From assembly GCA_022788105.1 (NCBI GenBank), contig JALEVZ010000024.1:1-36710 (forward strand): a stretch of DNA of 36,710 nucleotides, given 5' to 3'. Shown here piece after piece: positions 13,293 to 36,412 of the stretch (within the stretch, counting starts at the first letter, position 1; each line of letters starts with the position of its first letter). The notes beneath the pieces are model-generated. The model had not been told where the DNA came from. It saw only the letters and a program-made list of their open reading frames with translations, and did no database searches. Both the position numbers and the translations under genes were made by a program. The DNA comes from Prevotella sp. Lineage in GTDB: Bacteria > Bacteroidota > Bacteroidia > Bacteroidales > Bacteroidaceae.

Positions 13293-13380
13293 GGTCGGTA
13301 TGAGCATGCGTTACGGTCGGTATGAGCATGCGTTACGGTCGATACGAGCATGCGTTACGGTCGATACGAGCATATCTGTT
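13293..13380. repeat. 22-bp tandem array 1 (four units)
   Basis: Four head-to-tail 22-base units start at 13293, 13315, 13337 and 13359. The core is GGTCGGTATGAGCATGCG in units 1-2 and GGTCGATACGAGCATGCG in unit 3; unit 4 diverges at its end. Differences between units 1-3 are transitions. Twenty-two is not a multiple of three, which argues against coding. The array lies in a gap of about 600 bases between the kinase-like gene and mazG. The rest of that gap (13381-13590) is G-rich on the plus strand and I see no gene or recognisable RNA in it. Confidence 0.93.
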
Positions 13381-13593
13381 GGGCTATGTGAGACTATTTG
13401 TAGTGCCTTGTTACAGAGCCTAAAGGCGGAGTGGGGATGTCGTGTGGATGGGTGTAGCAAGGCGAGGTTGCGTCCGTCGGGAGGTGCTGGCGACATGATT
13501 GTGGTCGGCAGACACAGGGGTGGCGCTGTGAAAATAAGTGAAAGACTTTGATATAAACATGAAAAGAGCGTCCTCATTGTCAAAAATAATGAC

Positions 13594-13601
13594 TACCTTT
13601 G
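13594..13601 (+). promoter_or_regulatory. -7 box of the mazG promoter
   Basis: TACCTTTG is an exact TAnnTTTG match, about 85 bases upstream of the mazG ATG. A TTG lies upstream at 13577-13579, but the spacing (14 bases) is short. Confidence 0.5.
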
Positions 13602-13686
13602 CCCATAATTATGTTCGCGTACGGTGATGGGCGGCTACAGATGTGGCTGCCATGCCGTGACGATTTTCGTTAAACAGACAGATTAT

Positions 13687-14538
13687 ATGCATACAAGAGA
13701 AGAAAAGCTGAAGGCTTTCGGACGTCTCCTCGACGTGTTGGACACACTGCGTGAGAAGTGTCCGTGGGACCGAAAACAGACCAATGAGAGCCTGCGCCCC
13801 AACACTATAGAGGAAACATACGAGCTGTGCGACGCGCTTATCAACAACGACGATGCCAACATCTGCAAGGAGTTGGGCGACGTGTTGCTGCACGTCTGCT
13901 TCTATGCGCGTATCGGTCAGGAGAAAGACCAGTTTGATGTTGCCGACGTGTGCAACATGTTGGTGGACAAACTCATCTTCCGTCATCCCCACGTCTACCA
14001 CCCCTCGCAGGTGGGTGCGCCCGACCCGAAGCCGCTACCCTATGGCGAACAGCCAGGAGAGGCAGAAGAAGACGTGAAGACCGCACAGCAGGTGATAGAA
14101 AACTGGGAACAGATCAAACTCAAGGAGAAGGACGGTAACAAAAGCGTGCTGTCTGGTGTGCCAGCGGCTTTGCCTGCTCTCATCAAGGCGTATCGCATAC
14201 AGGACAAGGCGCGCAACGTGGGCTTTGACTGGGAAGACAAGGGCGACGTGTGGGCGAAGGTGCGCGAAGAGCTTGCCGAACTGGAGGTGGAGTTGCGCAA
14301 GGAGGACAAAGAGCACTCTGAAGAGGAGTTTGGCGACTTCCTGTTCAGCCTTATCAACGCTGGTCGTCTCTACAAACTCAATCCCGACACGTGTCTTGAG
14401 AAGACCAACAAAAAGTTTATCAGCCGCTTCAACTATATTGAGGCGCACAGCATAAAGCTTGGCAAGCCGCTCAAAGACATGACACTCGGCGAGATGGACG
14501 CACTGTGGAACGAGGCTAAGGCGCAGGAGAAGAAATAG
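13687..14538 (+). CDS. mazG: MazG nucleoside triphosphate pyrophosphohydrolase
   Basis: The 283-residue protein has two tandem MazG domains. The first holds CPWDRKQTNESLRPNTIEET with EExYE (EETYELCD) and KELGDVLLHVCFYA. The second holds VREELAELEVELRKE and SEEEFGDFLFSLINAGR. These acidic clusters bind magnesium and hydrolyse NTPs to NMP and pyrophosphate, cleaning the nucleotide pool. I start at the ATG at 13687 (MHTREEKLKAFGRLLDVLDTL), where the family alignment begins; the frame extends to 13624 but encodes unrelated sequence there. A lipoprotein gene and rnz follow on the same strand. Confidence 0.95.
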   Translation: MHTREEKLKAFGRLLDVLDTLREKCPWDRKQTNESLRPNTIEETYELCDALINNDDANICKELGDVLLHVCFYARIGQEKDQFDVADVCNMLVDKLIFRHPHVYHPSQVGAPDPKPLPYGEQPGEAEEDVKTAQQVIENWEQIKLKEKDGNKSVLSGVPAALPALIKAYRIQDKARNVGFDWEDKGDVWAKVREELAELEVELRKEDKEHSEEEFGDFLFSLINAGRLYKLNPDTCLEKTNKKFISRFNYIEAHSIKLGKPLKDMTLGEMDALWNEAKAQEKK

Positions 14539-14629
14539 TGGCTCCGCTGCCTCTGTGTAGAAACAACTATCTGTTGGCTGTCAGATTCCTTCGGAGTTTG
14601 GCAGCTATGTGGACAAAAGAATAAGAACT

Positions 14630-15181
14630 ATGAGAAAGACAATTGTTTTCGTACTGGCGTCGGCGATGGTGCTGTGTGCCGCCTGCAACGGCAAAAAGCC
14701 CAACAACACGATGGTCGGCGCACCAGTAGAAGAATGTGGTGCCGACACTACTGCCTATGGCGTGTGTGGCGACGGCACGGCTATGCACACCCTGCAACTT
14801 ATCACCGACTTGGGTGACACGCTGGAATATGCGCTTATCAAGGCCGACGACAGCGAGAGTAGTGTGGCTGGCGGACTGATGGCTGGCGACAGAGTGGCAG
14901 TGACAGGCCACGACACTGCTGACGGGCGTGTGGCAGACAAGGTGATAAACCTCACGTCACTGCTCGGCCGCTGGACCAGTATAGACAAGAACTTCGTGAT
15001 CGAAGAGGGTGGCACGGTGTCGTCGAGCGTGAAAGCAGAGACGGAGTCGTGGACCAACTGGAAGATTTTCAACGGTCATCTGCTCCTCAACAAAGACACG
15101 TTTGACGTGGTGATGATAGGTGCAGACTCGCTGTCATTGGAGAATAATAAGGGCATATTCGTGTACAAACGCCGGCAGTAA
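14630..15181 (+). CDS. Lipocalin-like lipoprotein (Lipocalin_3 type)
   Basis: The 183-residue protein starts MRKTIVFVLASAMVLCAAC, a lipoprotein signal with the modified cysteine most likely at residue 19. The second half (LLGRWTSIDKNFVIEEGGTV, then SSSVKAETESWTNWKIFNGH and VMIGADSLSLENNKGIFVYK) resembles the Bacteroidota lipocalin-like domain, which typically opens LxGxW and ends with a threshold-like strand. The ligand is unknown. The first half, with HTLQLITDLGDTLEYALIKA and AGDRVAVTGHDTADGRV, resembles a small beta-rich module. I choose the ATG at 14630 because it gives a clean signal peptide; a further in-frame start lies at 14609. Confidence 0.75.
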   Translation: MRKTIVFVLASAMVLCAACNGKKPNNTMVGAPVEECGADTTAYGVCGDGTAMHTLQLITDLGDTLEYALIKADDSESSVAGGLMAGDRVAVTGHDTADGRVADKVINLTSLLGRWTSIDKNFVIEEGGTVSSSVKAETESWTNWKIFNGHLLLNKDTFDVVMIGADSLSLENNKGIFVYKRRQ

Positions 15182-15210
15182 GCAGGGCTGGAATTAAATA
15201 AAAGACTGAT

Positions 15211-16125
15211 TTGGAACCATTTAAAGTGCATATCCTGGGATGTGGCAGTGCCCTTCCCACGCTTCGCCATAACCCCTCGTCGCAGGTCGTGGAGGTGCGG
15301 GGTAAGATGTTTATGGTAGATTGCGGCGAAGGCACGCAGTTGCAGTTGCGCCGCGTGAAGGTGCGATTTACGAAGGTGAGCGCCGTGTTTATCTCACATC
15401 TTCATGGCGACCATTGCTTCGGACTGATAGGCATGATTTCGACTTTCGGCATGCTCGGTCGCACCGCCGCCCTGCATATCTATGCCCATAAGGACTTGGA
15501 GACCATGCTGAAGCCGCAGATTGACTATTTCTGCAACGGACTGGAGTATGACATCGTGTTCCATTCCATCGACCCTACGCAGCAGAAGGTGATATATGAA
15601 GACCGTAGCATAGAGGTGGAGACGGTGCCGTTGCGCCATCGCATGCCGTGTTGCGGATTCATATTTCGCGAGAAACCCACGCTGCCGCATATCCGTCGCG
15701 ACATGATAGACTGCTACGAGATTCCGCTCTCACAGGTCAACAACATCAAGAATGGGGCTGACTGGACGACGGAAGACGGCGTGGTGGTGCCGAACAGCAA
15801 ACTCACAGTGCCAGCAGACGCACCGCGTAGCTACGCCTATTGCAGTGACACGAAATATTTTGAGGAGCTTGCCGATGAGGTGCGTGGCGTAGATACCATC
15901 TATCATGAGGCTACATACGACTCCAAAAACATAGCCCGTGCCAAGCTCTACAACCACAGCACGGCGCAGCAAGCGGCAACGGTGGCGCGCGACGCAGGGG
16001 CGAAACGCTTGATAATAGGCCATTTCAGTGCGCGCTACGAGGAGGAAGACGGACTGCTTCGCGAGGCGAAAGAGGTATTCCCCGACACGGTGCTGGCGGC
16101 AGAGGGCGTGGCGTTTGACGTGTAG
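15211..16125 (+). CDS. rnz: Ribonuclease Z (tRNA 3'-processing endonuclease)
   Basis: The 304-residue metallo-beta-lactamase-fold protein has the zinc-binding HLHGDH motif at residues 63-68. It also has the ILGCGSALPTLRHNPSSQ start typical of RNase Z, the DCGEGTQLQLRR segment, YCSDTKY and HEATYDS with further metal ligands, and IIGHFSARYEE near the end. It trims the 3' trailer of precursor tRNAs in the cytosol. The only start compatible with the conserved N-terminus is TTG at 15211, because no ATG or GTG precedes the ILGCGS strand in frame. A TTG start may lower expression. Confidence 0.95.
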   Translation: MEPFKVHILGCGSALPTLRHNPSSQVVEVRGKMFMVDCGEGTQLQLRRVKVRFTKVSAVFISHLHGDHCFGLIGMISTFGMLGRTAALHIYAHKDLETMLKPQIDYFCNGLEYDIVFHSIDPTQQKVIYEDRSIEVETVPLRHRMPCCGFIFREKPTLPHIRRDMIDCYEIPLSQVNNIKNGADWTTEDGVVVPNSKLTVPADAPRSYAYCSDTKYFEELADEVRGVDTIYHEATYDSKNIARAKLYNHSTAQQAATVARDAGAKRLIIGHFSARYEEEDGLLREAKEVFPDTVLAAEGVAFDV

Positions 16126-16241
16126 TGTCGGCGCTCGTGGTGTGTGGGTGTGATGGCATGTTATTGTCCTTTCATAGTTAAATTGTTTTAAAAAACAGGA
16201 GATTTTTTATTCGCATTATAATAGGTGTGGGCAAAATATCA

Positions 16242-16249
16242 TATATTTG
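16242..16249 (+). promoter_or_regulatory. -7 box upstream of the envelope operon
   Basis: TATATTTG is an exact TAnnTTTG match about 45 bases upstream of the ATG at 16293. No -33 TTTG is visible. The operon encodes its own ECF sigma factor, so other promoters may exist. Confidence 0.5.
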
Positions 16250-16292
16250 CATATTGATAGGACTAAAAAGATAACGTAAAGGAATTTTTTAT

Positions 16293-16613
16293 ATGGCGAA
16301 ATATATACTTGCAATTTCATTGGCAGCACTCTTCTCTTTCAGCATGCCTGCCAAGACGATGGCCAGTACGGCCATTGAGATTATTGAAAACGACATACAG
16401 CCTAACGGCGACAACGTGTCTATCTCTATCGAGGGGACAGCGGTGCGCGTGACAGGTGCCAATGGCCAGGTGCTGTATGTGTACAATGTTGCAGGCGTTC
16501 GCATACAGAGCGTCAAGGTGGAAGGTTCGGACAAGCATCTGGATCTTAACTTGAAAAAAGGCTGCTACATACTGAAGGTAGGCAAGACGGTACGTAAGGT
16601 GTCGTTGAAGTGA
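16293..16613 (+). CDS. Small secreted protein consisting of a T9SS sorting-domain-like module
   Basis: The 106-residue protein has a signal peptide (MAKYILAISLAALFSFSMP) and about 25 residues of linker, then one beta-rich module. VRVTGANGQVLYVYNVAGVR, SVKVEGSDKHLDL and GCYILKVGKTVRKVSLK match the layout of the C-terminal sorting domains of type IX secretion cargo (G-x-V-x-V-Y-D-x-x-G, then L-x-x-G-x-Y-x-V-K-V). No cargo domain is present. Its stop overlaps the GTG start of the L,D-transpeptidase (GTGA, 16610-16613). The function is unknown: a stand-alone decoy, a surface patch or a regulator are all possible. Confidence 0.7.
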   Translation: MAKYILAISLAALFSFSMPAKTMASTAIEIIENDIQPNGDNVSISIEGTAVRVTGANGQVLYVYNVAGVRIQSVKVEGSDKHLDLNLKKGCYILKVGKTVRKVSLK

Positions 16614-18160
16614 CTCTGAAACAATCTTTTTTATGCCTCCTATTGGGGGCATTGCTTGTTGTCTCTTGTCGAGAGCGCAGCCATAAGGTGCCTCTGACAA
16701 GAGATTCTTTTGCTGATATGTGTGACAGCAGGTTGCATCTCAGTGAAAAGAAAATACGTAAACATGTCGCTGACCTGATGTTCGAAGATAAGGACATGCA
16801 GGCTGCCGACATTCAACTGAAACGTTATTATCAAGCCCATGGCGACTTCCTCTGGATAGGTAGAGGAGGGGTTAGAGCCGATGCCGACAGCGTGGTGAAA
16901 TATGTTGCGCGGGTAACGGAGATGGGCTTTTCTGCCGACCGCTTCCGTGTGGACGACATAAGGGACGACATACAACGTGTGAGGAGGCTTGAGTTTGGCG
17001 ACGACGGCATAGACCTCGTGTTCGCAAGGCTTGAATATAACCTCACGAAAGCCTTTCTGCGCTATTGCGTGGGGCAGCGTTATGGCTTCGTAAACCCACG
17101 TAAACTCTTCAACAGACTTGACGTTCATGACAGCGACTCGGTGCATGTGACCTACCAGACGCTGTTCGACATACCGGTGAAGAACCCAGACAAGAACTTC
17201 TGTAAGATGGCGTTCGGGAAGATTAGGCACGACAGTGTTGGTGTGTTCCTGCGCGAGTCAGAGCCTGCCGACCCCTTCTACAGAGAACTGCTGGCACGGC
17301 TGCACAGCGAGACCACAGAGGCGGGGCGCATGCGTGTGATGTGTAACATGGAGCGTTGCCGCTGGGCTGCCGGCCGCTATCCTGTCAAAGAAGACAAATA
17401 TGTGCTTCTGAACGTGGCGTCGCAGGAGCTTGACGCCGTCGACGGCGACAAGCGGTTGTCTATGCGTGTGGTGTGTGGGGCGACGAAAACGAAGACGCCG
17501 CTCCTGTATAGCCGCATCGAACGCATCGACATCAATCCGCAATGGATCATCCCGAAGAGCATTGTGAAGAAGAGTGTAGTGCCTCATGCTGGCAGCACGG
17601 CTTACTTTGACAGTCGTCGCTACTTTGTGCTTGAGCGTAAAACTGGTAAGACGGTAGATGCGGCGCTGACTACCCCACAGATGCTGATGAGCCACGACTA
17701 CCTCGTCATACAGAAGGGTGGAAAGGGCAATTCGCTCGGACGAATGATATTTAGGTTCGACAACAAGTTTTCGGTCTATCTGCATGACACCTCCAACCCT
17801 AAACTTTTCACATCTACAGACCGCATGGCGTCGCACGGATGTGTTAGAGTTCAGCGTCCGCTCGACCTCGCCATGTTCTTGCTTGGCGACGCAGACGAAC
17901 GGCTGAAGGAGAAGGTGCGCTACTCGTTTACTGTAGACCTTGAAGCCGAAAGTGCCGCTGACGGCGCCGAGGGAGGGCGCAACGGCGCTGCCTCTGTGGA
18001 CAAATCGAAACTTGTAAGGTCGGTGCCAGTGAAGGCAAAGGTGCCGCTTTTCATAACCTATTTTACTTTGTTTAAAACCGCCGACGGCAGCATGCGGTCA
18101 TATCCAGACATTTACGGATATGACAAAGTGCTGGCACAGGCATTAAAAAGATATATGTGA
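16610..18160 (+). CDS. L,D-transpeptidase lipoprotein (YkuD domain, YcbB-like)
   Basis: The 516-residue protein begins with a lipoprotein signal (MTLKQSFLCLLLGALLVVSC, cysteine 20). Its middle part (LTKAFLRYCVGQRYGFVNPR) resembles the helical scaffold domain of YcbB/LdtD-type enzymes. The YkuD domain follows, with VLLNVASQELDAVDG, RIDINPQWIIPKSI and the catalytic motif SHGCVR at 408-413 (Cys411). Such enzymes make 3-3 cross-links in peptidoglycan or attach proteins to it in the periplasm. The GTG start at 16610 overlaps the previous stop and gives the full signal peptide. The end overlaps the ECF sigma start (GTGA, 18157-18160), so cell-wall remodelling and sigma production are translationally linked. 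Confidence 0.92.
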   Translation: MTLKQSFLCLLLGALLVVSCRERSHKVPLTRDSFADMCDSRLHLSEKKIRKHVADLMFEDKDMQAADIQLKRYYQAHGDFLWIGRGGVRADADSVVKYVARVTEMGFSADRFRVDDIRDDIQRVRRLEFGDDGIDLVFARLEYNLTKAFLRYCVGQRYGFVNPRKLFNRLDVHDSDSVHVTYQTLFDIPVKNPDKNFCKMAFGKIRHDSVGVFLRESEPADPFYRELLARLHSETTEAGRMRVMCNMERCRWAAGRYPVKEDKYVLLNVASQELDAVDGDKRLSMRVVCGATKTKTPLLYSRIERIDINPQWIIPKSIVKKSVVPHAGSTAYFDSRRYFVLERKTGKTVDAALTTPQMLMSHDYLVIQKGGKGNSLGRMIFRFDNKFSVYLHDTSNPKLFTSTDRMASHGCVRVQRPLDLAMFLLGDADERLKEKVRYSFTVDLEAESAADGAEGGRNGAASVDKSKLVRSVPVKAKVPLFITYFTLFKTADGSMRSYPDIYGYDKVLAQALKRYM

Positions 18161-18705
18161 CGACACACAACGACAATGACTTACAGCGACGTCTGGCAGA
18201 CCCGAGGGAATGTAGGACGGCATTTGCCGAAGTCGTGGCCCAGTATAGTGAACCGCTATATTGGAAGGTGCGTCGTATAGTGCTCAATCATGACGATGCC
18301 AACGACATCATGCAGAATGTCTTTTTGAAGGCATGGAACAGCCTGGGCGACTTCCAAAGCCGGTCGAAGGTGTCGACATGGCTCTATCGCATAGCCATAA
18401 ACGAGGCGCTTGACTTCGTGCGTCATCAGAAGAAACGGCAGGGAGTAAGTGCCGACGAAGACCTGACGGTGGCGAATAAACTGCTTGCAGACGAATACTT
18501 CGATGGCGACCAGACGGAAGCAATGCTTCAGGAGGCAATCTCACAACTACCTGAAGTCCAGCGCGCGGTGTTCAATTTGAGGTATTACGACGAGATGAAG
18601 TACTCGGAGATGAGTGCCATTCTCAACACCTCGGAAGGGGCTTTGAAGGCAAGTTACCATATAGCGGTGAAAAAAATAACCGAATTTTTTAATGCCAGGG
18701 ATTAA
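18157..18705 (+). CDS. ECF-type RNA polymerase sigma factor
   Basis: The 182-residue protein has sigma region 2 (AEVVAQYSEPLYWKVRRIVL, then DDANDIMQNVFLKAWNSLGD and STWLYRIAINEALDFVRHQK) and region 4 (LPEVQRAVFNLRYYDEMKYS and GALKASYHIAVKKI). This is the compact RpoE-like layout. The GTG start overlaps the stop of the L,D-transpeptidase. The next gene encodes a one-pass membrane protein in the usual place of an anti-sigma factor, and a CpxP/Spy-like periplasmic protein follows, so the group probably senses envelope stress and controls its own operon. The promoter sequence it recognises is not identifiable from one locus. Confidence 0.93.
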   Translation: MTTHNDNDLQRRLADPRECRTAFAEVVAQYSEPLYWKVRRIVLNHDDANDIMQNVFLKAWNSLGDFQSRSKVSTWLYRIAINEALDFVRHQKKRQGVSADEDLTVANKLLADEYFDGDQTEAMLQEAISQLPEVQRAVFNLRYYDEMKYSEMSAILNTSEGALKASYHIAVKKITEFFNARD

Positions 18706-18775
18706 ACCTTATGAAACAATATGCGTCAAATAGTCAGGCGAACAATATATTAATAAGGTGAAAGGGGATTTTATT

Positions 18776-19147
18776 ATGAACAACGAACAATTGGAAATAG
18801 AGCGCAGATTTGACAAGAATCAGCCGTTCAAGGTGCCAGAAGGCTACTTTGATAGGCTTGCTGCCGATGTGATGGCCAATATTCCAGAGCAGAAGCCAGT
18901 GGCTACTGTGCCTCTGTCGTGGTGGCGTAGATTGCGTCCGGTGGCAGTGGCGGCGGCATGTGTGTGTGCTGCAGTGTTCAGCATACAGCTATTCCTTCAT
19001 GCACCGTCAGACAAGCATCATGCCGTGCCTCATGTCTCAAGTGCGTCTCAAACAAATGGCGACAGTTACGGAACGCTTGACATGGCAGCCGACTATACTA
19101 TGATAGACAACGACTACATCTATGCGATGGTGTCGGAAAATCAGTGA
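18776..19147 (+). CDS. One-pass membrane protein, putative anti-sigma factor
   Basis: The 123-residue protein starts at ATG 18776, preceded by a purine-rich stretch (AAGGTGAAAGGGG). Its cytosolic part contains FKVPEGYFDRLAADVMANIP, a motif common in Bacteroidota proteins encoded after ECF sigma factors. One membrane span (VAVAAACVCAAVFSIQLFL) lies around residues 60-80, with a Ser/His-rich outer tail. It has no recognisable zinc-binding HxxxCxxC site. The anti-sigma role is inferred from position and topology. Confidence 0.75.
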   Translation: MNNEQLEIERRFDKNQPFKVPEGYFDRLAADVMANIPEQKPVATVPLSWWRRLRPVAVAAACVCAAVFSIQLFLHAPSDKHHAVPHVSSASQTNGDSYGTLDMAADYTMIDNDYIYAMVSENQ

Positions 19148-19157
19148 TTTTTTTATT

Positions 19158-19625
19158 ATGAACAAGATGAAACGCTTACTGTTATTTATAGCAATGGTGA
19201 TGTGTATTGGCGCCGTCGGAGCGCAGCAGCACCAGCGTGGACCGCGTGGGCACATGCCGCCGTCGTTTGACCCGGCACGCTTTGAGGCCGAGCTTGAGCA
19301 GTTTATCGTTGAAGAGGCGTGCCTGACGCCGAAAGAGGCCAGCGTGTTTTTCCCGCTCTATCGTGAGATGCGCAAGAAGCAGATGGTGTATTTCAACAAG
19401 ATGCGGCGTGACCGTTTCGCCGACTATGCTGACGACAAGGCTTGTGAACGCATAATACGTGAGGCAGACCAACGCGACCTTGACTTGAAGAAGTTGCAGC
19501 AGCAGTACCACAATAAGTTTATGAAGGTGTTGTCACCATCAAAGACTTTCCGTGTGATAAGGGCGGAAGAGAAGTTCCACAGGAAGATATTCAAACGTGC
19601 CGCAAAGCGTGACGGGGAGGTATGA
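19158..19625 (+). CDS. Periplasmic Spy/CpxP-like protein
   Basis: The 155-residue protein begins with a signal peptide ([20 protein letters not shown], cleavage near GAQQ). The mature part is almost all charged helix, for example [20 protein letters not shown] and [19 protein letters not shown]. It has the LTPxE and arginine/lysine-rich pattern of the LTxxQ (Spy/CpxP) group of periplasmic chaperones and stress sensors. Its place in the ECF sigma operon supports a stress role. The ATG at 19158 is chosen because it gives the signal peptide; the frame opens further upstream at 19122. The last bases overlap truA (ATGA). Confidence 0.75.
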
Positions 19626-20356
19626 TGCAGCGATATTTCATTACATTTGCCTATGACGGCACGCACTACCACGGCTGGCAGATACAGCCCAACGGCATCT
19701 CTGTGCAGGAAGTGTTGCAGAAGGCGTTGTCAACGCTGCTCCGTGGCGAGACAGGAGTGGTCGGCGCAGGACGTACCGACGCCGGAGTGCATGCGCGACG
19801 CATGGTTGCTCATTTCGAGACCGAGCGCGAGGTGGACTGCCAGCAGTTAGCTTACAAGCTCAACCGCCTACTTCCTCGCGACATCTCCGTGTATGATGTG
19901 AAGCCTGTCGACAGCGATATGCACGCACGATTCAGTGCTACCAAGCGCACATACCACTATTATATACACACTCGCAAGAACCCGTTTGCACGCGCTTACT
20001 CGTGTGAGATGCACTACGAGCTGGACTTTGACAAGATGAATGAGGCTGCAGCGTGGCTTCTTCAAGTCGACGATTTCGGCGCATTCTGCAAGGCTAACAC
20101 CGACGTCAAGACCACATTGTGCGACGTTATGGAAGCCCGGTGGATAGCATGTGGCGACCATGAGTGGTATTTCCGCATCTCCGCAAACCGCTTCCTGCGC
20201 AATATGGTGCGCGCGGTGGTAGGCACGCTGATAGAAGTTGGGCGCGGCCGCATGACGCTTGAGCAGTTTCGTGCCGTCGTGGCAGGCAAGAGTCGCTCCG
20301 ATGCTGGCGAGAGCATGCCTGGCAATGCGCTGTTTCTTGAAAACGTGGAGTATTGA
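19622..20356 (+). CDS. truA: tRNA pseudouridine synthase A
   Basis: The 244-residue protein has the catalytic motif GRTDAGVHA (Asp nucleophile), the N-terminal [24 protein letters not shown] and the C-terminal [20 protein letters not shown]. TruA converts uridines 38-40 of the anticodon arm to pseudouridine. The start ATG overlaps the stop of the preceding gene; a second ATG follows at 19625 and could be used instead. A housekeeping gene at the end of an envelope-stress operon would be co-expressed with it unless it has its own promoter. Confidence 0.97.
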
Positions 20357-25312: not shown

Positions 25313-25346
25313 GGGTAACGCAATGCGAATGGCTTGCGTTGCCCAT
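25313..25346 (+). terminator. Hairpin terminator after the OmpH gene
   Basis: GGGTAACGCAA (25313-25323) pairs with TTGCGTTGCCC (25334-25344) with one wobble pair around a 10-base loop. Only a short T stretch follows, and it belongs to the first unit of the 22-bp array. Confidence 0.6.
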
Positions 25347-25449
25347 TTCGTGTTATATAAATCCTCATTTCGTGTTATATAAATCCCCGTTTCGTGTTAT
25401 ATAAATCCCTGTTTCGTGTTTTATAAATCCTCGTTTCGTGTTTATAAAG
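25346..25449. repeat. 22-bp tandem array 2 (four units plus a partial fifth) abutting the nth start
   Basis: Units start at 25346, 25368, 25390 and 25412. Each opens TTTCGTGTTATATAAATCC (unit 4 has TTTTA in place of TTATA) and ends in three variable bases (TCA, CCG, CTG, TCG). A partial unit at 25434 with a one-base deletion runs into the nth ATG at 25450. The array fills the whole gap between the OmpH terminator and nth, so the nth promoter or ribosome-loading region must lie in it. Confidence 0.95.
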
Positions 25450-26097
25450 ATGAGAAGAAGTGAACGTTACGTCTTTATGCTCGACTATTTCCGTGAACAT
25501 GTCGGCAATGTAGGGACAGAACTTGAGTTTGGCAGCGTCTATCAGCTGCTGGTGGCGGTGGTGCTTAGCGCACAATGTACGGACAAACGTGTGAACATGG
25601 TCACTCCGGAGCTATTTCGTCGCTATCCAGACGCGCGGTCGATGGCGAGTGCCGATGTAGACGATGTGTACGAATATGTGCGCAGTGTGTCCTATCCCAA
25701 CGCTAAGGCGCGCCATCTCGTAGAGTTGTCAAAGGCTCTGATGGAGCGCTTCGACGGTGAGGTGCCATCCTCTGCGTCAGACCTTGTGTCGCTTCCTGGG
25801 GTGGGGCGTAAGACCGCGAACGTGGTACAGGCGGTGGCTTTCGGCAAAGCCACTATGGCGGTAGACACGCATGTCTATCGTGTGAGCCATCGGTTGGGGC
25901 TTGTAGCCAAAACCGATAACACGCCACTGAAGGTGGAACAGACGCTCATGCGCCACATTCCAGAAGCCGATGTGCCTAATGCGCACCACTGGCTGCTGCT
26001 GCATGGACGCTATGTGTGTACCAGTCGCGCGCCTCATTGTGCAGAGTGTGGATTGGCAGCGGTGTGTCCCAAGATCATGGATGGCAGCAAATTGTAG
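25450..26097 (+). CDS. nth: Endonuclease III (DNA glycosylase/AP lyase)
   Basis: The 215-residue base-excision repair enzyme removes oxidised pyrimidines and nicks at abasic sites. Its helix-hairpin-helix LVSLPGVGRKTANVV contains the catalytic lysine, and the catalytic aspartate is in AVDTHVYRVSHRLGL. The [4Fe-4S] cluster ligands follow the C-x6-C-x2-C-x5-C pattern in CTSRAPHCAECGLAAVC. The ATG at 25450 (MRRSERYVFMLDYF) fits the family; a GTG at 25438 in the last repeat unit is in frame. Expression may depend on the 22-bp array directly upstream. Confidence 0.96.
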   Translation: MRRSERYVFMLDYFREHVGNVGTELEFGSVYQLLVAVVLSAQCTDKRVNMVTPELFRRYPDARSMASADVDDVYEYVRSVSYPNAKARHLVELSKALMERFDGEVPSSASDLVSLPGVGRKTANVVQAVAFGKATMAVDTHVYRVSHRLGLVAKTDNTPLKVEQTLMRHIPEADVPNAHHWLLLHGRYVCTSRAPHCAECGLAAVCPKIMDGSKL

Positions 26098-26107
26098 AAG
26101 CATAAGG

Positions 26108-26173
26108 CCTGTCTTGAAACAACAGATAGCATGCTTCGGATAAACAAAAAGTCTGTCTTGAAACATCAAACTA
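26108..26173. repeat. 22-bp tandem array 5 (three diverged units) upstream of comEC
   Basis: CTGTCTTGAAACA at 26109 recurs at 26153, exactly 44 bases on. The 22 bases between (26130-26151) align with the first unit at 13 of 22 positions, with most differences being transitions. Units are therefore 26108-26129, 26130-26151 and 26152-26173. It is weaker than the other arrays. Confidence 0.6.
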
Positions 26174-26194
26174 TAATATAACTCCCAGACCTAA

Positions 26195-27778: not shown

Positions 27779-28516
27779 CTATACGCTAAAGTAATCTTCC
27801 AGTTCAGCGTCGGCGCTGCCCTCCGTGTTGGGCAAATCCTTTATTATTTTGCCGTGCTCAAGCAGCACAATGCGCGACGAAACCTCTACCGTGTGTTGCA
27901 GATTGTGGCTTGACAGCAGTATGGTGGCGCCGTGACGGCTGTTGTAGTTGGTGAGTAGCTGCTTCAGAATGTTCTGACTGCTCGGGTCGAGGAAGTTGAA
28001 CGGCTCGTCCAAGATGAGCAGTTGCGGCTGGTTTATCAGCGCTGCCACGATGCCAATCTTCTGCTTGTTGCCTGCCGAGAAGTCTCGAATCAGCTTTTTT
28101 TGTCCCATTATCTCGCCGCCCATAAACTGCGCATACTTGTCGAGTCTGGTGTCAAGCTGCTCTTTGCTTATGTTACTTACTTTAGCAATGAAGTCGAAAT
28201 ACTCTTCCGGTGTGAGAAATTCGATGAGAAAACCGCTGTCTATGTAGGCACCAGTATATTGTTTCCAGTCCTCCAGCATTGCCGGATTGACGGTCAAAGT
28301 GTCGTTGGGATTGGCGTTGTCGGTCGCGAATGTCAGCTCCACGTAGCCGTTGTCCGCCTTCAGCAGGTCGAGCATGAGGCGGAATAGAGTGGTCTTGCCA
28401 GCGCCGTTATTACCTACGAGGCCGACCATCTCGCCGTCTGCAATGTGCAGACTGTCTATGTCTACAGCCGTTTTGTCCTTAAACGACTTGACGAGTCCTT
28501 TTAGTTCTATTTGCAT
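27779..28516 (-). CDS. ABC transporter ATP-binding protein (orphan)
   Basis: The 245-residue ATPase has Walker A GNNGAGKT (35-42), the variant signature FSAGNKQKIGI, Walker B LLILDEPFNFLDP and the switch histidine in LLSSHNLQH. It closely recalls the Bacteroidota ATPase that is usually paired with a DUF5687 membrane protein. No such permease is next to it here: comEC lies convergent on one side and a GNAT gene on the other. Its partner must be elsewhere, or it has a non-transport role. The 22-bp array at 28523 ends seven bases before its start codon. Confidence 0.93.
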   Translation of the reverse strand: MQIELKGLVKSFKDKTAVDIDSLHIADGEMVGLVGNNGAGKTTLFRLMLDLLKADNGYVELTFATDNANPNDTLTVNPAMLEDWKQYTGAYIDSGFLIEFLTPEEYFDFIAKVSNISKEQLDTRLDKYAQFMGGEIMGQKKLIRDFSAGNKQKIGIVAALINQPQLLILDEPFNFLDPSSQNILKQLLTNYNSRHGATILLSSHNLQHTVEVSSRIVLLEHGKIIKDLPNTEGSADAELEDYFSV

Positions 28517-28522
28517 AGTGTA

Positions 28523-28588
28523 TGTGTTGTGTCGTTTTCAATTATGTGTTGCGCCTTCTTCAGCTGTGTGTTGCGCTTTCTTTAATAT
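28523..28588. repeat. 22-bp tandem array 3 (three units) at the GNAT/ABC junction
   Basis: Units start at 28523, 28545 and 28567. All begin TGTGTTG; units 2 and 3 share TGTGTTGCGC and TTCTT. Units 1 and 2 match at 15 of 22 positions, with six of seven differences being transitions. The array spans the 3' end and stop codon of the GNAT gene and the leader of the ABC ATPase. Confidence 0.75.
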
Positions 28589-30683: not shown

Positions 30684-30728
30684 ACTTCGTGATGAGGTTT
30701 TGTTGACTATACAATAAAGGCTTAAAAG

Positions 30729-30779
30729 AAAAGAGCTGTGCCACGTTGCCATTATGGCAACAGGGCACAGCTCTTTTTC
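30729..30779. terminator. Bidirectional terminator between the PurF-like gene and the zinc-ribbon gene
   Basis: AAAAGAGCTGTGCC (30729-30742) pairs with GGCACAGCTCTTTT (30764-30777), and an inner stem GTTGCC/GGCAAC closes on ATTAT. A-runs and T-runs on the two sides suit termination on both strands, as expected between convergent genes. Confidence 0.88.
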
Positions 30780-30819
30780 GTGACTGTCGTTTATGTCTTG
30801 CGCTTGGGCGCTTAGAGGT

Positions 30820-31647
30820 TTATTCCTCCTCGGCAGCCTTAGTCTTGCGCACGGTGCGCTTACGCTTGGGCTTGTCCTCTGTCTCTGCGACAGCGGGCTT
30901 TACACCGGCAAGCTCAGGGTCTATCATGATGCGTCCGCAGTATTCGCAGACAATCACCTTCTTGTGCATCTTGATGTCGAGTTGGCGCTGTGGCGGAATC
31001 TTGTTGAAGCAACCGCCGCATGCGTCGCGCTGCACGTAAACGATGCCCAGACCGTTGCGGGCGTTCTTACGTATGCGCTTGAAGCTTGAAAGCAGGCGCG
31101 GCTCAATCTTGGTCTCCAGATCCTTAGCGATGAGTTTGAGCTTTTCTTCCTCTTCGCGTGTCTCCTGCATGATTTCGTCGAGCTCGTTCTTCTTCTCCTC
31201 GAGTGCCGATTGGCGGTCGTCCATCATGTCGTGGGTGTGGGCAAGCTCACGCTTCTTGTCGTCAACCTTAGCCAGTGCCTCGCGTATCTTCTTGTTACAC
31301 AGCTCGATTTCAAGGCTCTGGAACTCGATCTCCTTTGTCAGGGTGTCGTATTCGCGGTTGTTCTTCACGTCGTCGAGCTGACGCTTGTAGCGCTCTACGC
31401 TCTCCTGGGCCTGCTCAATCTCGCCCTTCTTCTGTGCCACGGCGTTCTGAAACTCCTCTATCTCATTCTCGATTTTAGCAATGCGGATGTTCAGACCTTC
31501 AATCTCGTCTTCCAGGTCCTGAACTTCAAGGGGCAGCTCGCCACGGAGCGCACGTTTCTCGTCGATGGCCGACAATGTGGTCTGAAGCTGATAAAGGGTC
31601 TGCAGCTTCTCTTCTACTGATAAATCTGTAGGATCTTTCTTTGCCAT
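30820..31647 (-). CDS. Coiled-coil C4 zinc-ribbon protein (zf-RING_7 / CT398-like)
   Basis: The 275-residue protein is a long coiled coil for roughly its first 190 residues (for example EEFQNAVAQKKGEIEQAQES, EKKNELDEIMQETREEEEKL). A zinc ribbon follows with CGGCFNKIPPQ and VIVCEYCGR, four cysteines in two knuckles, then a basic tail (KPKRKRTVRKTK) that may bind nucleic acid. Proteins of this type are encoded next to Nif3 in many Bacteroidota, as here, with 12 bases between the genes. Their exact role is not established. Related chlamydial proteins have been linked to sigma-54 and flagellar-type partners, which does not transfer directly to this setting. Confidence 0.88.
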   Translation of the reverse strand: MAKKDPTDLSVEEKLQTLYQLQTTLSAIDEKRALRGELPLEVQDLEDEIEGLNIRIAKIENEIEEFQNAVAQKKGEIEQAQESVERYKRQLDDVKNNREYDTLTKEIEFQSLEIELCNKKIREALAKVDDKKRELAHTHDMMDDRQSALEEKKNELDEIMQETREEEEKLKLIAKDLETKIEPRLLSSFKRIRKNARNGLGIVYVQRDACGGCFNKIPPQRQLDIKMHKKVIVCEYCGRIMIDPELAGVKPAVAETEDKPKRKRTVRKTKAAEEE

Positions 31648-31659
31648 AATTTATGCTTG

Positions 31660-32457
31660 TTAAAAATAGATTATGGGATTGGTGTTAGTGGCAGCCAGCA
31701 CACAGCGCACGCCACCGCACTTCTCCTCAATTATAGACTTGAATATTTCGTTTGTAAACTGTTCGCTCTGATAGTGCCCGATGACAGCAATCTGTAGCTG
31801 CTGTTCGTGACCGAAGAACTCGTGGTAGTGCATCTCGCCAGTCACAAAAGCGTCGGCACCGGCCTTCACGGCGTCGGGCAGAAGAAACGACCCAGAGCCG
31901 CCGCACATCGCCACACGACGTATGGGGCGTCGCAACAGTTGGTTGGCCTGCACACATTCCACGTCGAACACGCGCTTGAGCATCACTATGAAGTCGTCGG
32001 CAGCCATCGGTTCGGCAAACTCTCCCACAACGCCAGAGCCACACTCTATGCCGTCTACCACCTTGGTGGCAATCAGCCGCGCGTCTTGCAGCCCCATCTT
32101 CTCTGCCATCTTGAAGTTCACTCCGCCCACAGCGTTGTCCATATTGGTGTGCATCGACACGATGACTATGCCGTGTTGTATGGCTTTCATCACCACACGC
32201 TGCACATCGTCGCCGTCTGACACGCAAGAGAGCTTGTGGAAGATGAGCGGATGGTGTGACACAATGAGGTTGCACTGCGAGGCAATTGCCTCGTCAAGAA
32301 TCTGTGGCGTAACGTCCAGACACAATAATGCCCCTGATAGATCCGCCTCTGTCAATCCAACCTGCAGGCCGGCATTATCCCATCCTTCCTGCAAGGGCAG
32401 AGGCGCGAACTGTTCAAGGGCAGCAATCACTTCCTTTATTTTCACGCTTTTCAGCAT
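31660..32457 (-). CDS. Nif3-like dinuclear metal-centre protein (GTP cyclohydrolase I type 2 family)
   Basis: The 265-residue protein is the short form of the family, without the central PII-like insertion of longer members. Metal ligands are visible in NLIVSHHPLIFH (His68, His69), SMHTNMDNA (Asp107) and the C-terminal GHYQSEQF. The family forms toroidal hexamers with a two-metal site facing the cavity; its physiological substrate is uncertain and annotations as GTP cyclohydrolase are debated. It is co-transcribed with the zinc-ribbon gene, with its own -7 box at 32477. Confidence 0.93.
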   Translation of the reverse strand: MLKSVKIKEVIAALEQFAPLPLQEGWDNAGLQVGLTEADLSGALLCLDVTPQILDEAIASQCNLIVSHHPLIFHKLSCVSDGDDVQRVVMKAIQHGIVIVSMHTNMDNAVGGVNFKMAEKMGLQDARLIATKVVDGIECGSGVVGEFAEPMAADDFIVMLKRVFDVECVQANQLLRRPIRRVAMCGGSGSFLLPDAVKAGADAFVTGEMHYHEFFGHEQQLQIAVIGHYQSEQFTNEIFKSIIEEKCGGVRCVLAATNTNPIIYF

Positions 32458-32476
32458 TTTATATGTTATCAGACTG

Positions 32477-32484
32477 CAAAGGTA
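32477..32484 (-). promoter_or_regulatory. -7 box upstream of the Nif3 / zinc-ribbon unit
   Basis: The minus strand reads TACCTTTG, an exact TAnnTTTG match 20 bases upstream of the Nif3 start codon. No convincing -33 element. Confidence 0.55.
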
Positions 32485-32530
32485 ACAAATAAATTTTGTT
32501 TTCTTACTATCGCAGCAGAGCTTTTTACTC

Positions 32531-33673
32531 TTATTTAACGTTTTGCACTTTTATGACGTCTCGCAGCAGGCGCGTTGCCGCCACGATGTTGGCTTTTGCC
32601 GTCTTTGGCAGCATGGCTTCATGTATAGGTATGGTTGTCGGGCTGACCGCCACTATGCGGTCAAATCCTGCGTCACACAGGGCTTGGCGGTCGCTGACGC
32701 CTCCACTCACGAGCCATGTCTGCGGTCGGCTTGCCGTCCGCTTGCCCATGACGTGTTGCAAGACTCTGTATGGCAGCTTGCCCATGAGGGTTTGAGCGTC
32801 GCTGTGGCCCTCTCCCGTCACCACAATGTCGGCATCTGACAGCAGAGCGTCAAAGTCTGTCGCCTCAAACAGCAGTTCGGCGCCAGGGCGAAACTGTGCG
32901 TTGAAAAACTGTAGAAAGGCGTAGCCCAGTCCGCCAGCTGCTCCAGCTCCAGGACAGTCGCTCCTGTCGTAGGAGAAATGTCGGCTGCACGCCTCGGCAA
33001 AGCGTATGGCTCTCGCCTCCAATGTGTCTACCATAGCGCTGTCAGCACCCTTTTGCGGTGCGAAGACGCGTGCCGCACCATGCTGCCCACAGAGAGGATT
33101 GGTGACGTCTGACGCCAGCACAAAGGTGCTGTCGCGGCGCACTTTCTGCCAGTCGTCGCCCATAGCTTTGAGCATGCCGATGCCGCAGTCGGACGTGGCG
33201 CTGCCTCCAAGCCCCACGATGAAGTGTCTTATGCCGCGGTGGTAGGCGTCCATCACCATTTCGCCCACGCCCCACGACGTGGTGCGCAGAGGGTTGCGCT
33301 GCTCGGGTTCTATCAGAGCCAGGCCAGCGGTCTGCGCTATCTCTATTATAGCGGTCTTGCCTTCGTTCGTACCAGTGGAGCTGTCGGCAGCGGCACCCGC
33401 GCGGTTTGTGTCTACCACTCCGTAGCAGGCGTCTATCCACCGCATCAGACTGTCGTGGGTGCGTAGCGTGACGCGCTCGCCACCTGTCGCTGCGAGGAAG
33501 GCGTCGAGCATGCCTTCTCCGCCGTCACTCATCTCTATGGCGACGGTGTCGAGGTCTGACGGACAACCGTTGTCAGCGTCGTCGTCTCTCAGTCCCGAGG
33601 CTATCGCCTCGTTAACCTCTCTACTTGTGAGACATCCCTTGTAGGAGTCACACGCTATGATAATCTTGTGCAA
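32531..33673 (-). CDS. Glycerate kinase (GarK/GlxK family)
   Basis: The 380-residue protein has the family N-terminus KIIIACDSYKGCLTSREVNE, then AIEMSDGGEGMLDAFLAATG, the glycine-rich GLGGSATSDCGIGM, and SDVTNPLCGQHGAARVFAPQ. It also has CPGAGAAGGLGYAFLQFF and the C-terminal VTGEGHSDAQTLMGKLPYRV. It phosphorylates D-glycerate with ATP, feeding it into lower glycolysis. It follows the exported nuclease gene with 15 bases between them and precedes Nif3. No other glycerate or glyoxylate genes are in the window. Confidence 0.95.
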   Translation of the reverse strand: MHKIIIACDSYKGCLTSREVNEAIASGLRDDDADNGCPSDLDTVAIEMSDGGEGMLDAFLAATGGERVTLRTHDSLMRWIDACYGVVDTNRAGAAADSSTGTNEGKTAIIEIAQTAGLALIEPEQRNPLRTTSWGVGEMVMDAYHRGIRHFIVGLGGSATSDCGIGMLKAMGDDWQKVRRDSTFVLASDVTNPLCGQHGAARVFAPQKGADSAMVDTLEARAIRFAEACSRHFSYDRSDCPGAGAAGGLGYAFLQFFNAQFRPGAELLFEATDFDALLSDADIVVTGEGHSDAQTLMGKLPYRVLQHVMGKRTASRPQTWLVSGGVSDRQALCDAGFDRIVAVSPTTIPIHEAMLPKTAKANIVAATRLLRDVIKVQNVK

Positions 33674-33688
33674 AGCAAAATCGGGGTT

Positions 33689-34576
33689 TTAGTTCCACTC
33701 GTTCAAGTCGCATTTCGCTTCCACCTTCTTCTCTACTTCGTCGGGAAGAGAAGGGAAGAAGTCGAAGCCTGTGATGCGTTCCACCTCGTCGACAGTGTTT
33801 ACATAGTCGCCCATCGGGCGGTTGCCGTCAGTGTTTTTGTATATGAAGCCGATGGCTTTGGGTGTGCCGTCGTTGCATAGCACCACCTTAAAGAAAGCGT
33901 CGGGCACTGCCACCTTGTTGCTACCGATAGTCTTGCGGCGCGACTTTTTATAGAATACTGGACCGCAGACAACGTATAGGCTGCCATGCTGTTTCGCCCA
34001 GCGGCGGCAGGCAAGCTCCATCTCGTTCCAGTCGCCGCGGTTGAGGGTCGGCGCCTGCGGACAGATGTTGGTGAAAAGAAACGACTGGCGCATGGCCTCG
34101 GCGTCAAACTTGTTGTCGCCAGCTGGACACATGTGGCCACGGTCGTAGCCCGACGAGCGGTAGTCGCTGTCTTCGGCGCGTGGCGTAGCCACCTCTTCGT
34201 CGGCAGTGAACTTATAGTCTTTGCGGTTTGCGTCGCCCGTCGTGCGGCTGTCGGTGAGTCGCCATGCCACCCAGTTGGGCTGTCTGGTCTGCGCGTTGTA
34301 TGACACGGTGTAGCCCACACGCTTTAGTATCTGTTCCGTACCATTGACGATAGGGGCAGGCAATTCGAGCCCGTCGCTGACAACAGAATGGGTCGCCTTT
34401 TCCGTCTTGACGGTTTTGGACGTCTTGTTGTCGGTGCTGTTCGAAGAGGCAATGCGCTCTATCTCTTGCGCCGTTTTTACGACTGCGTGTATGCGCTTTT
34501 GTGTGGTGCTGTCACAAGAGAGTGAGGCACATGACATGACCAATATGGCCAGTCCGTAGAGAAAGGTGTTTCCCAT
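33689..34576 (-). CDS. Exported DNA/RNA non-specific endonuclease (NUC1/EndoG family), probable lipoprotein
   Basis: From the ATG at 34576 the protein has 295 residues. It begins MGNTFLYGLAILVMSCASLS followed by Cys, a lipoprotein-type signal with the lipidated cysteine at 16 or 21. The beta-beta-alpha-metal nuclease core follows: GYDRGHMCPAGDN with the catalytic histidine at about 148, FTNICPQAPTLNRGDWNEME with the metal-binding asparagine at about 179, and VVCGPVF. These enzymes cut DNA and RNA of any sequence. An outer-surface nuclease may serve nutrient scavenging or biofilm DNA breakdown. The frame extends to 34609 but without a signal-like N-terminus. Confidence 0.92.
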   Translation of the reverse strand: MGNTFLYGLAILVMSCASLSCDSTTQKRIHAVVKTAQEIERIASSNSTDNKTSKTVKTEKATHSVVSDGLELPAPIVNGTEQILKRVGYTVSYNAQTRQPNWVAWRLTDSRTTGDANRKDYKFTADEEVATPRAEDSDYRSSGYDRGHMCPAGDNKFDAEAMRQSFLFTNICPQAPTLNRGDWNEMELACRRWAKQHGSLYVVCGPVFYKKSRRKTIGSNKVAVPDAFFKVVLCNDGTPKAIGFIYKNTDGNRPMGDYVNTVDEVERITGFDFFPSLPDEVEKKVEAKCDLNEWN

Positions 34577-34645
34577 GGTTTGCTTGTGTGGCTGTTGGGG
34601 TCGGTTCAACGTCTGTATATGTCTATTTCGTGTCTCGACGGAGGT

Positions 34646-35494
34646 CTATTCTGCGTCTTGGTTTTCCTGTTCTGCGTATGGAGAGGCAGCGGTGTCGGGT
34701 TGTGTGCTGACGCTGGTCTTGGCTGCTGCGTCTTGTATAAGCCGTCCGTAGCCGTCCATGGAGTAGCGCGATGCCACGGCAAGGGCTACTGCCACAGAGC
34801 ACATGGAGGCGCAAAACGCTGCTCCGACAAGCACTATCTGCATGGTGACGGCGGTCAGCACACTTGCGCCGGCAAGCAGCATGGCCCACAGTATAAACGG
34901 TGTGGAGGACAGGACAGATGCCGACATGAACGCCAACCAGTGTGTGGCGACGCGCTCAAGAGCACGCTTGCGGAAATAGAACAGTGCCTCGTAGCTTGTC
35001 GCTCCGTTGGCAAGGAAGTAGCTGTACATCTCGTTGTGGTTGCGCAAGCCCATGTAGTAGAACGACAGGGCTTTGGACTCTATTTCGAGTATGGCGCCGC
35101 AGATGAGTCCTGCGACGGGTACAAGCTGTGCCACCGACACTTCTGTGCCGAGCTGCATTACGGCAAACAATAGCCATGAGCCTACTATCACAACAGCCAC
35201 CGCCGCACCTGCCAACACCGGCATGAGTCCGCTACGCAGCGATATATGGGCTTTCGCCACCGTGACGATGGCTGTTGTCGCTATCATGGCAATGCAGAAC
35301 ACGACGCTCAGGATGAGGCTGTCGCAGAGAAACAGTGCGTAGAGCATGCCGCCTAAGACGCCATATTTGACCAGCATCGTAACGACGGCTTTCACCATCT
35401 TGCCTGAGAAGCGCAGGGCGTAGGCTTGAAATAGATAGAGTGGGGCGATAAAGAGCAGTAAGCCAAGCATTACGCCCAAAACTGTTGTTTCCAT
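34646..35494 (-). CDS. ABC transporter permease of the FetB/UPF0014 type
   Basis: The 282-residue membrane protein has about seven spans (for example GVMLGLLLFIAPLYLFQAYA, GLMPVLAGAAVAVVIVGSWL). It carries the FetB-like coupling segment NGATSYEALFYFRKRALERV followed by HWLAFMSASVLSSTPFILWA and LLAGASVLTAVTMQIVLVG. In E. coli FetAB is linked to metal homeostasis; the substrate here is unknown. A hydrophilic tail of about 30 residues ends the protein. The matching ATPase is the gene just upstream, 70 bases away. Confidence 0.75.
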   Translation of the reverse strand: METTVLGVMLGLLLFIAPLYLFQAYALRFSGKMVKAVVTMLVKYGVLGGMLYALFLCDSLILSVVFCIAMIATTAIVTVAKAHISLRSGLMPVLAGAAVAVVIVGSWLLFAVMQLGTEVSVAQLVPVAGLICGAILEIESKALSFYYMGLRNHNEMYSYFLANGATSYEALFYFRKRALERVATHWLAFMSASVLSSTPFILWAMLLAGASVLTAVTMQIVLVGAAFCASMCSVAVALAVASRYSMDGYGRLIQDAAAKTSVSTQPDTAASPYAEQENQDAE

Positions 35495-35564
35495 TTGTGT
35501 TATATTTTTCTATGGTGTGTTTATATCATGTGCTGTGATTTCAAAACTCGATAGACGGTAGTGA

Positions 35565-36188
35565 CTAAAGCATGTACTTTGCGTCGGCTTGCGACTCCAG
35601 CGCCGCGTCTTTGGTGGCGACAAGCACCGCGCTGCCGTTTGTGGCGCTGTCACGAAGCAAGGTGCGCACCGTCTCTGCCTCGTCGGGTGTCAAACCCTCT
35701 GTCGGCTCGTCTGCAATGACGATGTGGCATGGCGCAGTCAGGACAAAAGACAGCATGATGCGTCGTTTCTCGCTGATGGTCAGAGAGGCGAAAGTCTTTG
35801 TCCACAACTGGTCGTCAAGCTGTAGTTTCGCCCACAGGTCGGCAGCTTGCTGTTTTTGTTGCTTTGCGGTCTTAGGCGCACGGGTTACGGACAGTAGCTT
35901 GAAGAGTTCGTCCACGCTCATCCGTTCCGGCACGTCGATGTGTTGGGGGATATACGCCATCTGCGAGCGGAAGTAGTTGGCGGTGGCGGGTTCGAGCAGT
36001 TCGGTGTCTATTGTGACGTATCCGCTGTCAAGCGGCAGCAACCCTGCCATTGCCTTCAGCAGTGTGGTCTTGCCGCTGCCGTTGCCTCCACAGACCGCCG
36101 TCAGCTGTCCGTCACGTGCTGTGAGCGACACCTTGTTAAGAACATCGTGTCCGCATATTGAGAGTATGGCATCTTTTATTTCTATCAT
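35565..36188 (-). CDS. ABC transporter ATPase with degenerate signature and H-loop (FetA-like)
   Basis: The 207-residue protein has Walker A GGNGSGKT (34-41), the Q-loop in YIPQHIDVP, and Walker B HIVIADEPTEGL (155-166) with its catalytic Glu161. The signature that should read LSGGQ is SLTISEKRR (135-143), and the switch histidine expected after strand 6 (VLVATHD) is a lysine (VLVATKD, 188-194). It pairs with the FetB-like permease downstream. Either the pair works with altered chemistry, or the transporter is slow or regulatory. The gene has a long leader containing the 22-bp array at 36341. Confidence 0.88.
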   Translation of the reverse strand: MIEIKDAILSICGHDVLNKVSLTARDGQLTAVCGGNGSGKTTLLKAMAGLLPLDSGYVTIDTELLEPATANYFRSQMAYIPQHIDVPERMSVDELFKLLSVTRAPKTAKQQKQQAADLWAKLQLDDQLWTKTFASLTISEKRRIMLSFVLTAPCHIVIADEPTEGLTPDEAETVRTLLRDSATNGSAVLVATKDAALESQADAKYML

Positions 36189-36340
36189 CTTTTCTAAACT
36201 GTAAATTGACTGTTATAGACTTCTCTGACTCGTTTTGCACGATGACACTTCTTTCGTTGTTTTGCTGACATTTTGCTATGTTTTGTCCAGAATTTCTTAC
36301 ATCAATTCTTAACGTGTGTTAAAAGTTCCGCGATGTTCCC

Positions 36341-36412
36341 ATTAGGCCGTAGTGACGATGTCATTAGGCCGTAGTGGCGACGTCATTAGGCCGTAGTGGC
36401 AAGCCCAAATGG
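36341..36412. repeat. 22-bp tandem array 4 (three units plus edges)
   Basis: Units start at 36341, 36363 and 36385, each opening ATTAGGCCGTAGTG. Units 1 and 2 differ by two transitions (GACGATGTC versus GGCGACGTC); unit 3 diverges at its end. Partial matches flank both sides. It lies about 150-220 bases upstream of the FetA-like ATPase, downstream of a minus-strand -7 box (36525), so it would be transcribed in the leader. The rest of 36189-36340 and 36413-36520 shows no gene. Confidence 0.92.

Follow-up and report, generated by a model that had tools for sequence, protein, structure and literature searches.

Tandem arrays of one 22-bp period and mostly unrelated units in the non-coding DNA of a Prevotella genome

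Tandem arrays in the intergenic DNA of a Prevotella sp. (GenBank assembly GCA_022788105.1) share a single period, 22 bp, and most of their units are unrelated in sequence. We analyzed a 36,710-nucleotide stretch of this genome (contig JALEVZ010000024.1, our contig C22; hereafter the window) together with further stretches of the same genome and of its relatives. A first-pass annotation, made from the letters of the window alone, had described five 22-bp arrays with unrelated units; Tandem Repeats Finder (TRF) recovered four, named here by their first positions (13292, 25342, 28521 and 36340), and at the fifth place, 26108, only a pair of sequences spaced by 44 bp. The four units are indeed unrelated to one another, but the 36340 array belongs to a dispersed family and the 13292 array has five partial matches elsewhere. 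Tentatively, and with slightly more doubt than conviction, we favour an explanation in which arrays of one period, mostly unrelated in sequence, arise locally in non-coding DNA and are resized in 22-bp steps by a protein that spans two helical turns.

One period across unrelated units

The source genome is a draft of 130 contigs and 2.49 Mb, from which we sampled 41 stretches including the window, 533 kb in all (21%). Among the 132 non-redundant arrays of this sample (score at least 50), 75 had period 22, followed by periods 21 (9 arrays), 8 (8) and 44 (5), with period 23 in only 4. The peak at 22 that the first-pass annotation had named as support for its claim is sharp, and it appears without a repeat finder: when 22-base windows with at least 18 matches at a fixed lag were counted in intergenic DNA, lag 22 gave 121 places, against 4 at 21 and 12 at 23, with 84 at 44 and 36 at 66 (coding lag counts are inflated by runs of N in some own-genome stretches). 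Exact runs of 11-14 and of 15-21 bases likewise peaked at 22 and 44. Five runs of Markov-simulated intergenic DNA yielded 1, 4, 3, 1 and 1 arrays, compared with 101 observed; 63 of the observed arrays have period 22, as did two of the four in one simulated run. Such arrays are present on most stretches examined, and adjacent copies are on average 87% identical (12 arrays with at least four full copies). Their units abut, and a CRISPR array was ruled out because there are no unique spacers between them.

To compare units, all rotations on both strands were aligned and pairs with at least 16 of 22 matches were joined, which left 52 of the 75 period-22 units as singletons and grouped the others into three pairs and a family of 17; after shuffling there were 0.3 pairs at 16 matches and zero above. 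When 120-bp flanks were included, half of the intergenic arrays with periods 21-23 or 44 (39 of 78) had no relative elsewhere in the sample. The arrays are thus not all diverged copies of one element, a possibility that the first-pass annotation had raised against its own proposal of a length-setting process; because the peak at 22 is sharp and the arrays do not all belong to one element, that proposal is supported.

Arrays found at a single locus of the source genome look neutral. Their units are not palindromic (self-complementarity 10.10 versus 9.93 for shuffled units, n = 58), clustering of mismatches along the unit was not found (z 1.4, 28 arrays), and neither an 11-bp harmonic within source-genome units, nor polarity (19 arrays, p 0.29), nor a strand or purine bias was detected. 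Divergent gaps are poorer in arrays than codirectional ones (0.46 versus 0.85 per kb; 6 of 39 versus 31 of 162 gaps), and in the nearest relative compared, genome G236, none of 21 divergent gaps holds an array. A location close to gene starts, noted in the first-pass annotation, holds for the 25342 and 28521 arrays without being a rule: where the flanking genes are codirectional, arrays of the sample lie at a median of 59 bp from the stop upstream and 137 bp from the start downstream. Transitions outnumber transversions 20 to 5 in the four good arrays of the window and, by a smaller margin, 273 to 129 over the sample, an excess that is ordinary mutational bias. The accompanying suggestion that the arrays may act as RNA is not supported for the single-locus arrays, which fold no better than expected (z -0.19 ± 0.13, n = 58).

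Two other repeat classes lie near this period or on its multiples. Period 21, the second commonest, is found wholly inside open frames in 6 of 9 arrays (L011, L017, L146, L152 and L153), where in-frame repeats of the ordinary sort would lie. Tandem units of 65-66 bp (3 x 22), related to one another, occur both in the source genome (L009:9652-9814, L022:17707-17865) and in G236 (L297:1-136, 11394-11537); they centre on TTGCATTATC(T/A)TTGCATA and carry a TATCTTTGCA resembling the Bacteroidetes -7 promoter box.

A dispersed family, relatives and turnover

The family of 17 is that of the 36340 array. A 16-base pattern of this family occurs 44 times in the source genome and not once in 298 other genomes of the genus. 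Searching for its ends 60 to 400 bp apart returned 23 end pairs representing 22 distinct elements, all with 132 bp (6 x 22) between conserved end sequences, one of them with an extra leader unit 22 bp outward (154 bp). Looser ends added ten unmatched left ends: three were re-listings or a 1-bp-shorter element, one was interrupted where its stretch ends, and six had no right end, one of which looks like chance. Because left ends occur without a right end, truncated copies exist. An alignment of the 22 copies, preselected for the 132-bp end distance, is conserved from about -22 to +198, with a shared leader and tail and with conserved columns every 22 positions (TG at phase 1-2, GTCA at 8-11, GGC near 16-18). 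No target duplication of 2 to 10 bp exceeded that of mismatched partners. In the consensus fold, TTGAC close to one end is paired with GTCA close to the opposite one, the ends being only approximately defined, and conserved pairing is weak (-6.1 versus -0.1 ± 0.2 for shuffled columns). A half-site reading of this family, suggested by eye, was rejected (palindrome measure 11.06 versus 10.79 shuffled).

The peak at 22 recurs in relatives, on other sequences. Period-22 arrays make up 23 of 50 arrays in G236 (281 kb), 17 of 56 in 20 genus genomes (20 kb each), 7 of 15 in G253 and 1 of 12 in G329. Among named relatives, whose loci are the best 80 of at least 582, 65 loci with mostly Bacteroidales titles held 22 among 130 arrays, and 15 loci with Cytophagales, Chitinophagales or Prolixibacteraceae titles held 0 among 19, although one of these (L075) had a period-22 row before overlapping rows were merged. 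Twenty other Bacteroidales families (396 kb) gave 0 of 16, which differs from the 20 genus genomes (Fisher p 0.016) and from the source genome (p 5e-6). The taxonomic limit is not absolute, because Porphyromonas levii and a Paludibacteraceae genome also carry such arrays. Relatives carry separate families: G236 has one (TGCGAAATGGGCCGTTTCGCA), as do G253 and the sister species G026 and G003, and two further arrays had many matches.

Two side observations concern this distribution. A 22-bp array of ACGGAATCTGATCGGACGGCGG with 34 bp of flank is 93.6% identical between the source genome (L007:136-260) and the distant G329 (L322:11508-11632), as expected of a transferred element. Period-7 arrays number eight in the 20 genus stretches, and all but one lie in a single stretch, L158 (G059:C17:100001-120000); another species thus prefers a different period.

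In G026 and G003 the family has the unit TGTATAA-N4-TTATACA-N4, in which a half-site of 7 bp recurs at 11-bp intervals, its orientation switching each time. Between 59 neighbouring pairs, accepted on overall identity, the arms differ at 0.09 and the centre and spacer at 0.45 each; around 34 anchors chosen by their arms, sites are spaced by 22 bp in 59 cases and by 20 in one, with no other spacing within 16 to 29. Conservation of the inverted half-site arms suggests, from the sequence, a bound protein. Palindromy above shuffled units was also found in G236 (12.35 versus 10.71), in the 20 genus genomes (12.59 versus 11.28) and in loci L027-L056 (14.00 versus 11.10), and in relatives mismatches cluster along the unit (z 4.0, 32 arrays); the units of G253 and G329 are not palindromic (11.25 versus 11.16).

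The places of arrays are poorly shared. Of six gaps that hold an array in the source genome, with period 22 in four and period 44 in two, five lack an array in G236 and the remaining one has a 22-bp array with an unrelated unit; an automatic list of ten orthologous gaps had four with an array in the source genome and none in G236. Because intergenic sequence is largely saturated at that distance, absence in G236 may mean a gain here or a loss there. In G026 and G003, which share 96%-identical blocks, one array at the same place has 5 units in the first and 3 in the second, a difference of 44 bp between flanks that are 95-96% identical; at this one locus, between species, we met copy-number variation of the type known as variable number of tandem repeats. 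Stretches of the G253 and G329 pair (93% identical) were compared and did not overlap. As a separate observation, each of the two breaks of synteny between G026 and G003 in a 20-kb stretch has a 22-bp array inside it or next to it (L168:3323-3894, 13910-14292), as if the arrays were points of rearrangement; at the change of contig in L169 (12968/12995) no 22-bp array was reported, the only repeat with several matches there lying at about 12829-12926.

A proposed fixed step and its alternatives

Under the explanation that we tentatively favour, arrays would probably arise locally in non-coding DNA and then gain or lose exactly 22 bp at a time, irrespective of their sequence. The step would likely be set by a protein spanning two helical turns, either an assembly that acts in replication or repair or a dimer bound to DNA; such a ruler could act at the birth of an array or at its expansion, or several copies might be made at once. 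In a second layer, some 22-bp arrays have turned into dispersed, species-specific families, one of which includes the 36340 array. A fixed 22-bp step is the best explanation because the arrays are neutral-looking, indifferent to sequence and of one exact period. A bolder version is possible, if on the doubtful side, in which a ruler of the Prevotella/Bacteroides lineage, either an enzyme or an assembly bound to DNA, duplicates and re-duplicates non-coding DNA of any sequence in exact 22-bp steps and so makes new arrays independently in each species, some arrays being captured as dispersed elements that in some species carry a half-site per turn.

Several observations weigh against a fixed step. 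Period 22 accounts for few of the two-copy arrays of high identity (6 of 29 in the source genome, 0 of 12 in G236, 0 of 15 in other genus genomes), so that fresh 22-bp duplications are not in excess outside the source genome, a warning against a birth by plain duplication. The share of period 22 is high at 3.5 copies or more (18 of 24, 9 of 11 and 8 of 11, respectively); many of the short two-copy arrays, with periods of 9-14, may be chance matches, and near-perfect arrays, of 2.1 to 7.0 copies, number nine among 137. The birth of an array was not observed in our comparison of one genome per species, nor was a ruler gene found, PF01797 being the sole gene family compared between genomes. Leaving aside the 17-member family, the other 55 units share slightly more with one another than shuffled units do (log-likelihood 105 versus 86 ± 4 and 81 ± 6.5), any common motif being weak at most, and unit G+C does not correlate with that of the flanks (r 0.10). 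Finally, since the sample covers 21% of the genome, small families can look like singletons.

An unlikely alternative is that every array derives from dispersed elements of the BrickBuilt kind, whose period was kept by homogenisation as the sequence drifted, the singletons being old or low-copy families. Consistent with this, 17 of the 75 arrays form one family with shared ends, the 13292 array has a few relatives, G236, G253 and the G026/G003 pair have families of their own, and one array with 34 bp of flank is common to L007 and L322. Yet no second match to the 25342 or the 28521 array was found in the whole genome (E <= 0.001), half of the intergenic arrays lack relatives in unit and flank, and the orthologous gaps of G236 are mostly empty. 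BrickBuilt itself, a miniature inverted-repeat transposable element of Porphyromonas gingivalis that bears a minisatellite, is present at 19 loci and consists of 23-nt units, all of one sequence (PMC4596501). The likeness lies in near-equal intergenic units, in a leader and tail (here in the dispersed family), in variable copy number and in hosts that belong to one taxonomic order, whereas here the unit is 22 bp, 52 of the 75 units have no counterpart in the sample, and the unique arrays have no shared ends. The comparison with P. gingivalis elements drawn in the first-pass annotation is good for the 36340 array and poor for the unique ones.

We think it rather unlikely that the arrays are selected sets of protein-binding sites, placed two turns apart so as to face the same side of the helix. 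Protein sites that recur at about 22 bp, or two turns, are familiar from iterons at replication origins and from the MuA and TnsB transposase sites, and 22-bp tandem repeats are known on chlamydial plasmids. For iterons and transposase sites, however, each protein has a single sequence, confined to one origin or to the ends of a transposon, whereas the present arrays are scattered over the chromosome with unrelated units. In relatives the case has substance, given the conserved arms at 22-bp spacing in G026 and G003, the palindromic units of G236, the 20 genus genomes and L027-L056, and the clustered mismatches; the in-phase sites suggested in the first-pass annotation are supported in these palindromic families. 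They are not in the source genome, where palindromy is seen neither in the single-locus arrays nor in the 17-member family (nor in G253 and G329), where 11-bp harmonic and mismatch clustering are lacking, where places are poorly conserved, and where divergent, promoter-bearing gaps have fewer arrays.

Ordinary replication slippage without a special period, the peak being due to lucky arrays or to the repeat finder, would explain whole-unit resizing and the transition bias; we regard it as improbable, given that the peak is seen without the finder and is missing both in simulations and in the 20 other families. Very improbable is an origin from an element that left 22-bp target duplications, or from a RAYT-type transposase. 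Either would yield a fixed length or palindromic families, and REPIN/RAYT systems are short palindromic intergenic families private to a species, although we know of no 22-bp tandem grid among them. No target duplication was seen at element edges, however, 22-bp repeats 0.1-4 kb apart are not in excess, and the RAYT-type (Y1) gene family does not track the arrays: PF01797 is found in 6 of 13 genus genomes, is missing from the array-bearing G236, G253, G026, G003 and G047, and is present in 16 of 19 other-family genomes. Least credible is an assembly artefact of short-read graphs with k = 21, in which k + 1 = 22 and to which a draft of 130 contigs might seem prone, because the copies differ (87% identity), which a graph loop does not make; moreover, period 22 occurs in isolate records (Porphyromonas levii, Phocaeicola coprophilus, Bacteroides acidifaciens) and in one array of a one-contig genome (L170), and is absent from other draft Bacteroidales.

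It is usual to regard the period of a minisatellite as a chance outcome of its first duplication. If a fixed step is real, a cell can set the length of a duplication, and the machinery could be sought by genetics and by comparison of strains; the species-specific half-site arrays of relatives would point to novel DNA-binding proteins. A precedent for unrelated units is provided by the tandem repeats of archaeal Borgs, which are of independent origin and turn over fast, with unit lengths of 18, 20 and 21 nt (PMC9879509). Borg repeats resemble ours in being genome-wide arrays with unrelated units, and differ in being near-perfect, in lying also within genes and in having no single period, whereas here one period prevails and the arrays are mostly diverged and mostly intergenic. 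No paper listed in searches of the open-licence literature describes a lineage with one period and unrelated units. We class the arrays with the minisatellites.

The arrays of the window and neighbouring repeats

Within the window, repeats were called by TRF (score at least 30); here and in the other stretches, genes were placed by a longest-open-frame rule (at least 80 or 100 aa) in place of a gene finder. In the window, strand was assigned to the 36340 features only. The window is unremarkable: the remaining sample is dense enough in arrays to predict 5.3 of them for 36.7 kb. An Rfam search of it returned zero matches. The first array (13292..13373) has 3.7 copies of CGGTCGATACGAGCATGCGTTA, and its five further partial matches, found by whole-genome search on three other contigs, mark a low-copy family. 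The second (25342..25448), with 4.9 copies of CCCGTTTCGTGTTATATAAATC, directly abuts the ATG at 25450 of an endonuclease III-like gene (HhH-GPD; Pfam). It is absent from the orthologous gap of G236, and at 29 further loci around it a 22-bp array was present in two, neither of them in that gap by position.

At the 26108 place, absent from the TRF list, a lag-44 match identifies a 44-bp-spaced pair of CTGTCTTGAAACA (26094..26175). Here a 13-base sequence recurs at 44 bp with a poorly matching 22-mer in between, the two neighbouring pairs among the three 22-mers sharing 13 and 10 of 22 bases, so that this is at most a decayed 22-bp array. The 28521 array (28521..28586; 3.0 copies at 75%) lies between two minus-strand genes, 4 bp from the start of an ABC transporter ATPase-like gene (27779-28516, Pfam), and overlaps the end, at 28560, of a GNAT-like open frame (Pfam). 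The 36340 array (36340..36400, minus strand) comprises 2.8 copies of units assigned to the 17-member dispersed family by clustering and pattern count; around it, the family alignment places the 132-bp (6 x 22) core of the element at 36299..36430 on the minus strand, with family conservation extending to about 36233-36452.

Two minor repeats complete the survey. Short arrays of an 8-bp unit, all of one family (TTTTTACC and its complement), occur in the source genome at L012:9902-9936, L022:5082-5115, L026:16889-16922 and L026:17151-17185. In the window, a 28-bp direct repeat (TGCAAAATTAGTAAAAAAGTGTGGAAAA; 12352-12379 and 13133-13160) stands upstream of two minus-strand genes and may hold a shared promoter.

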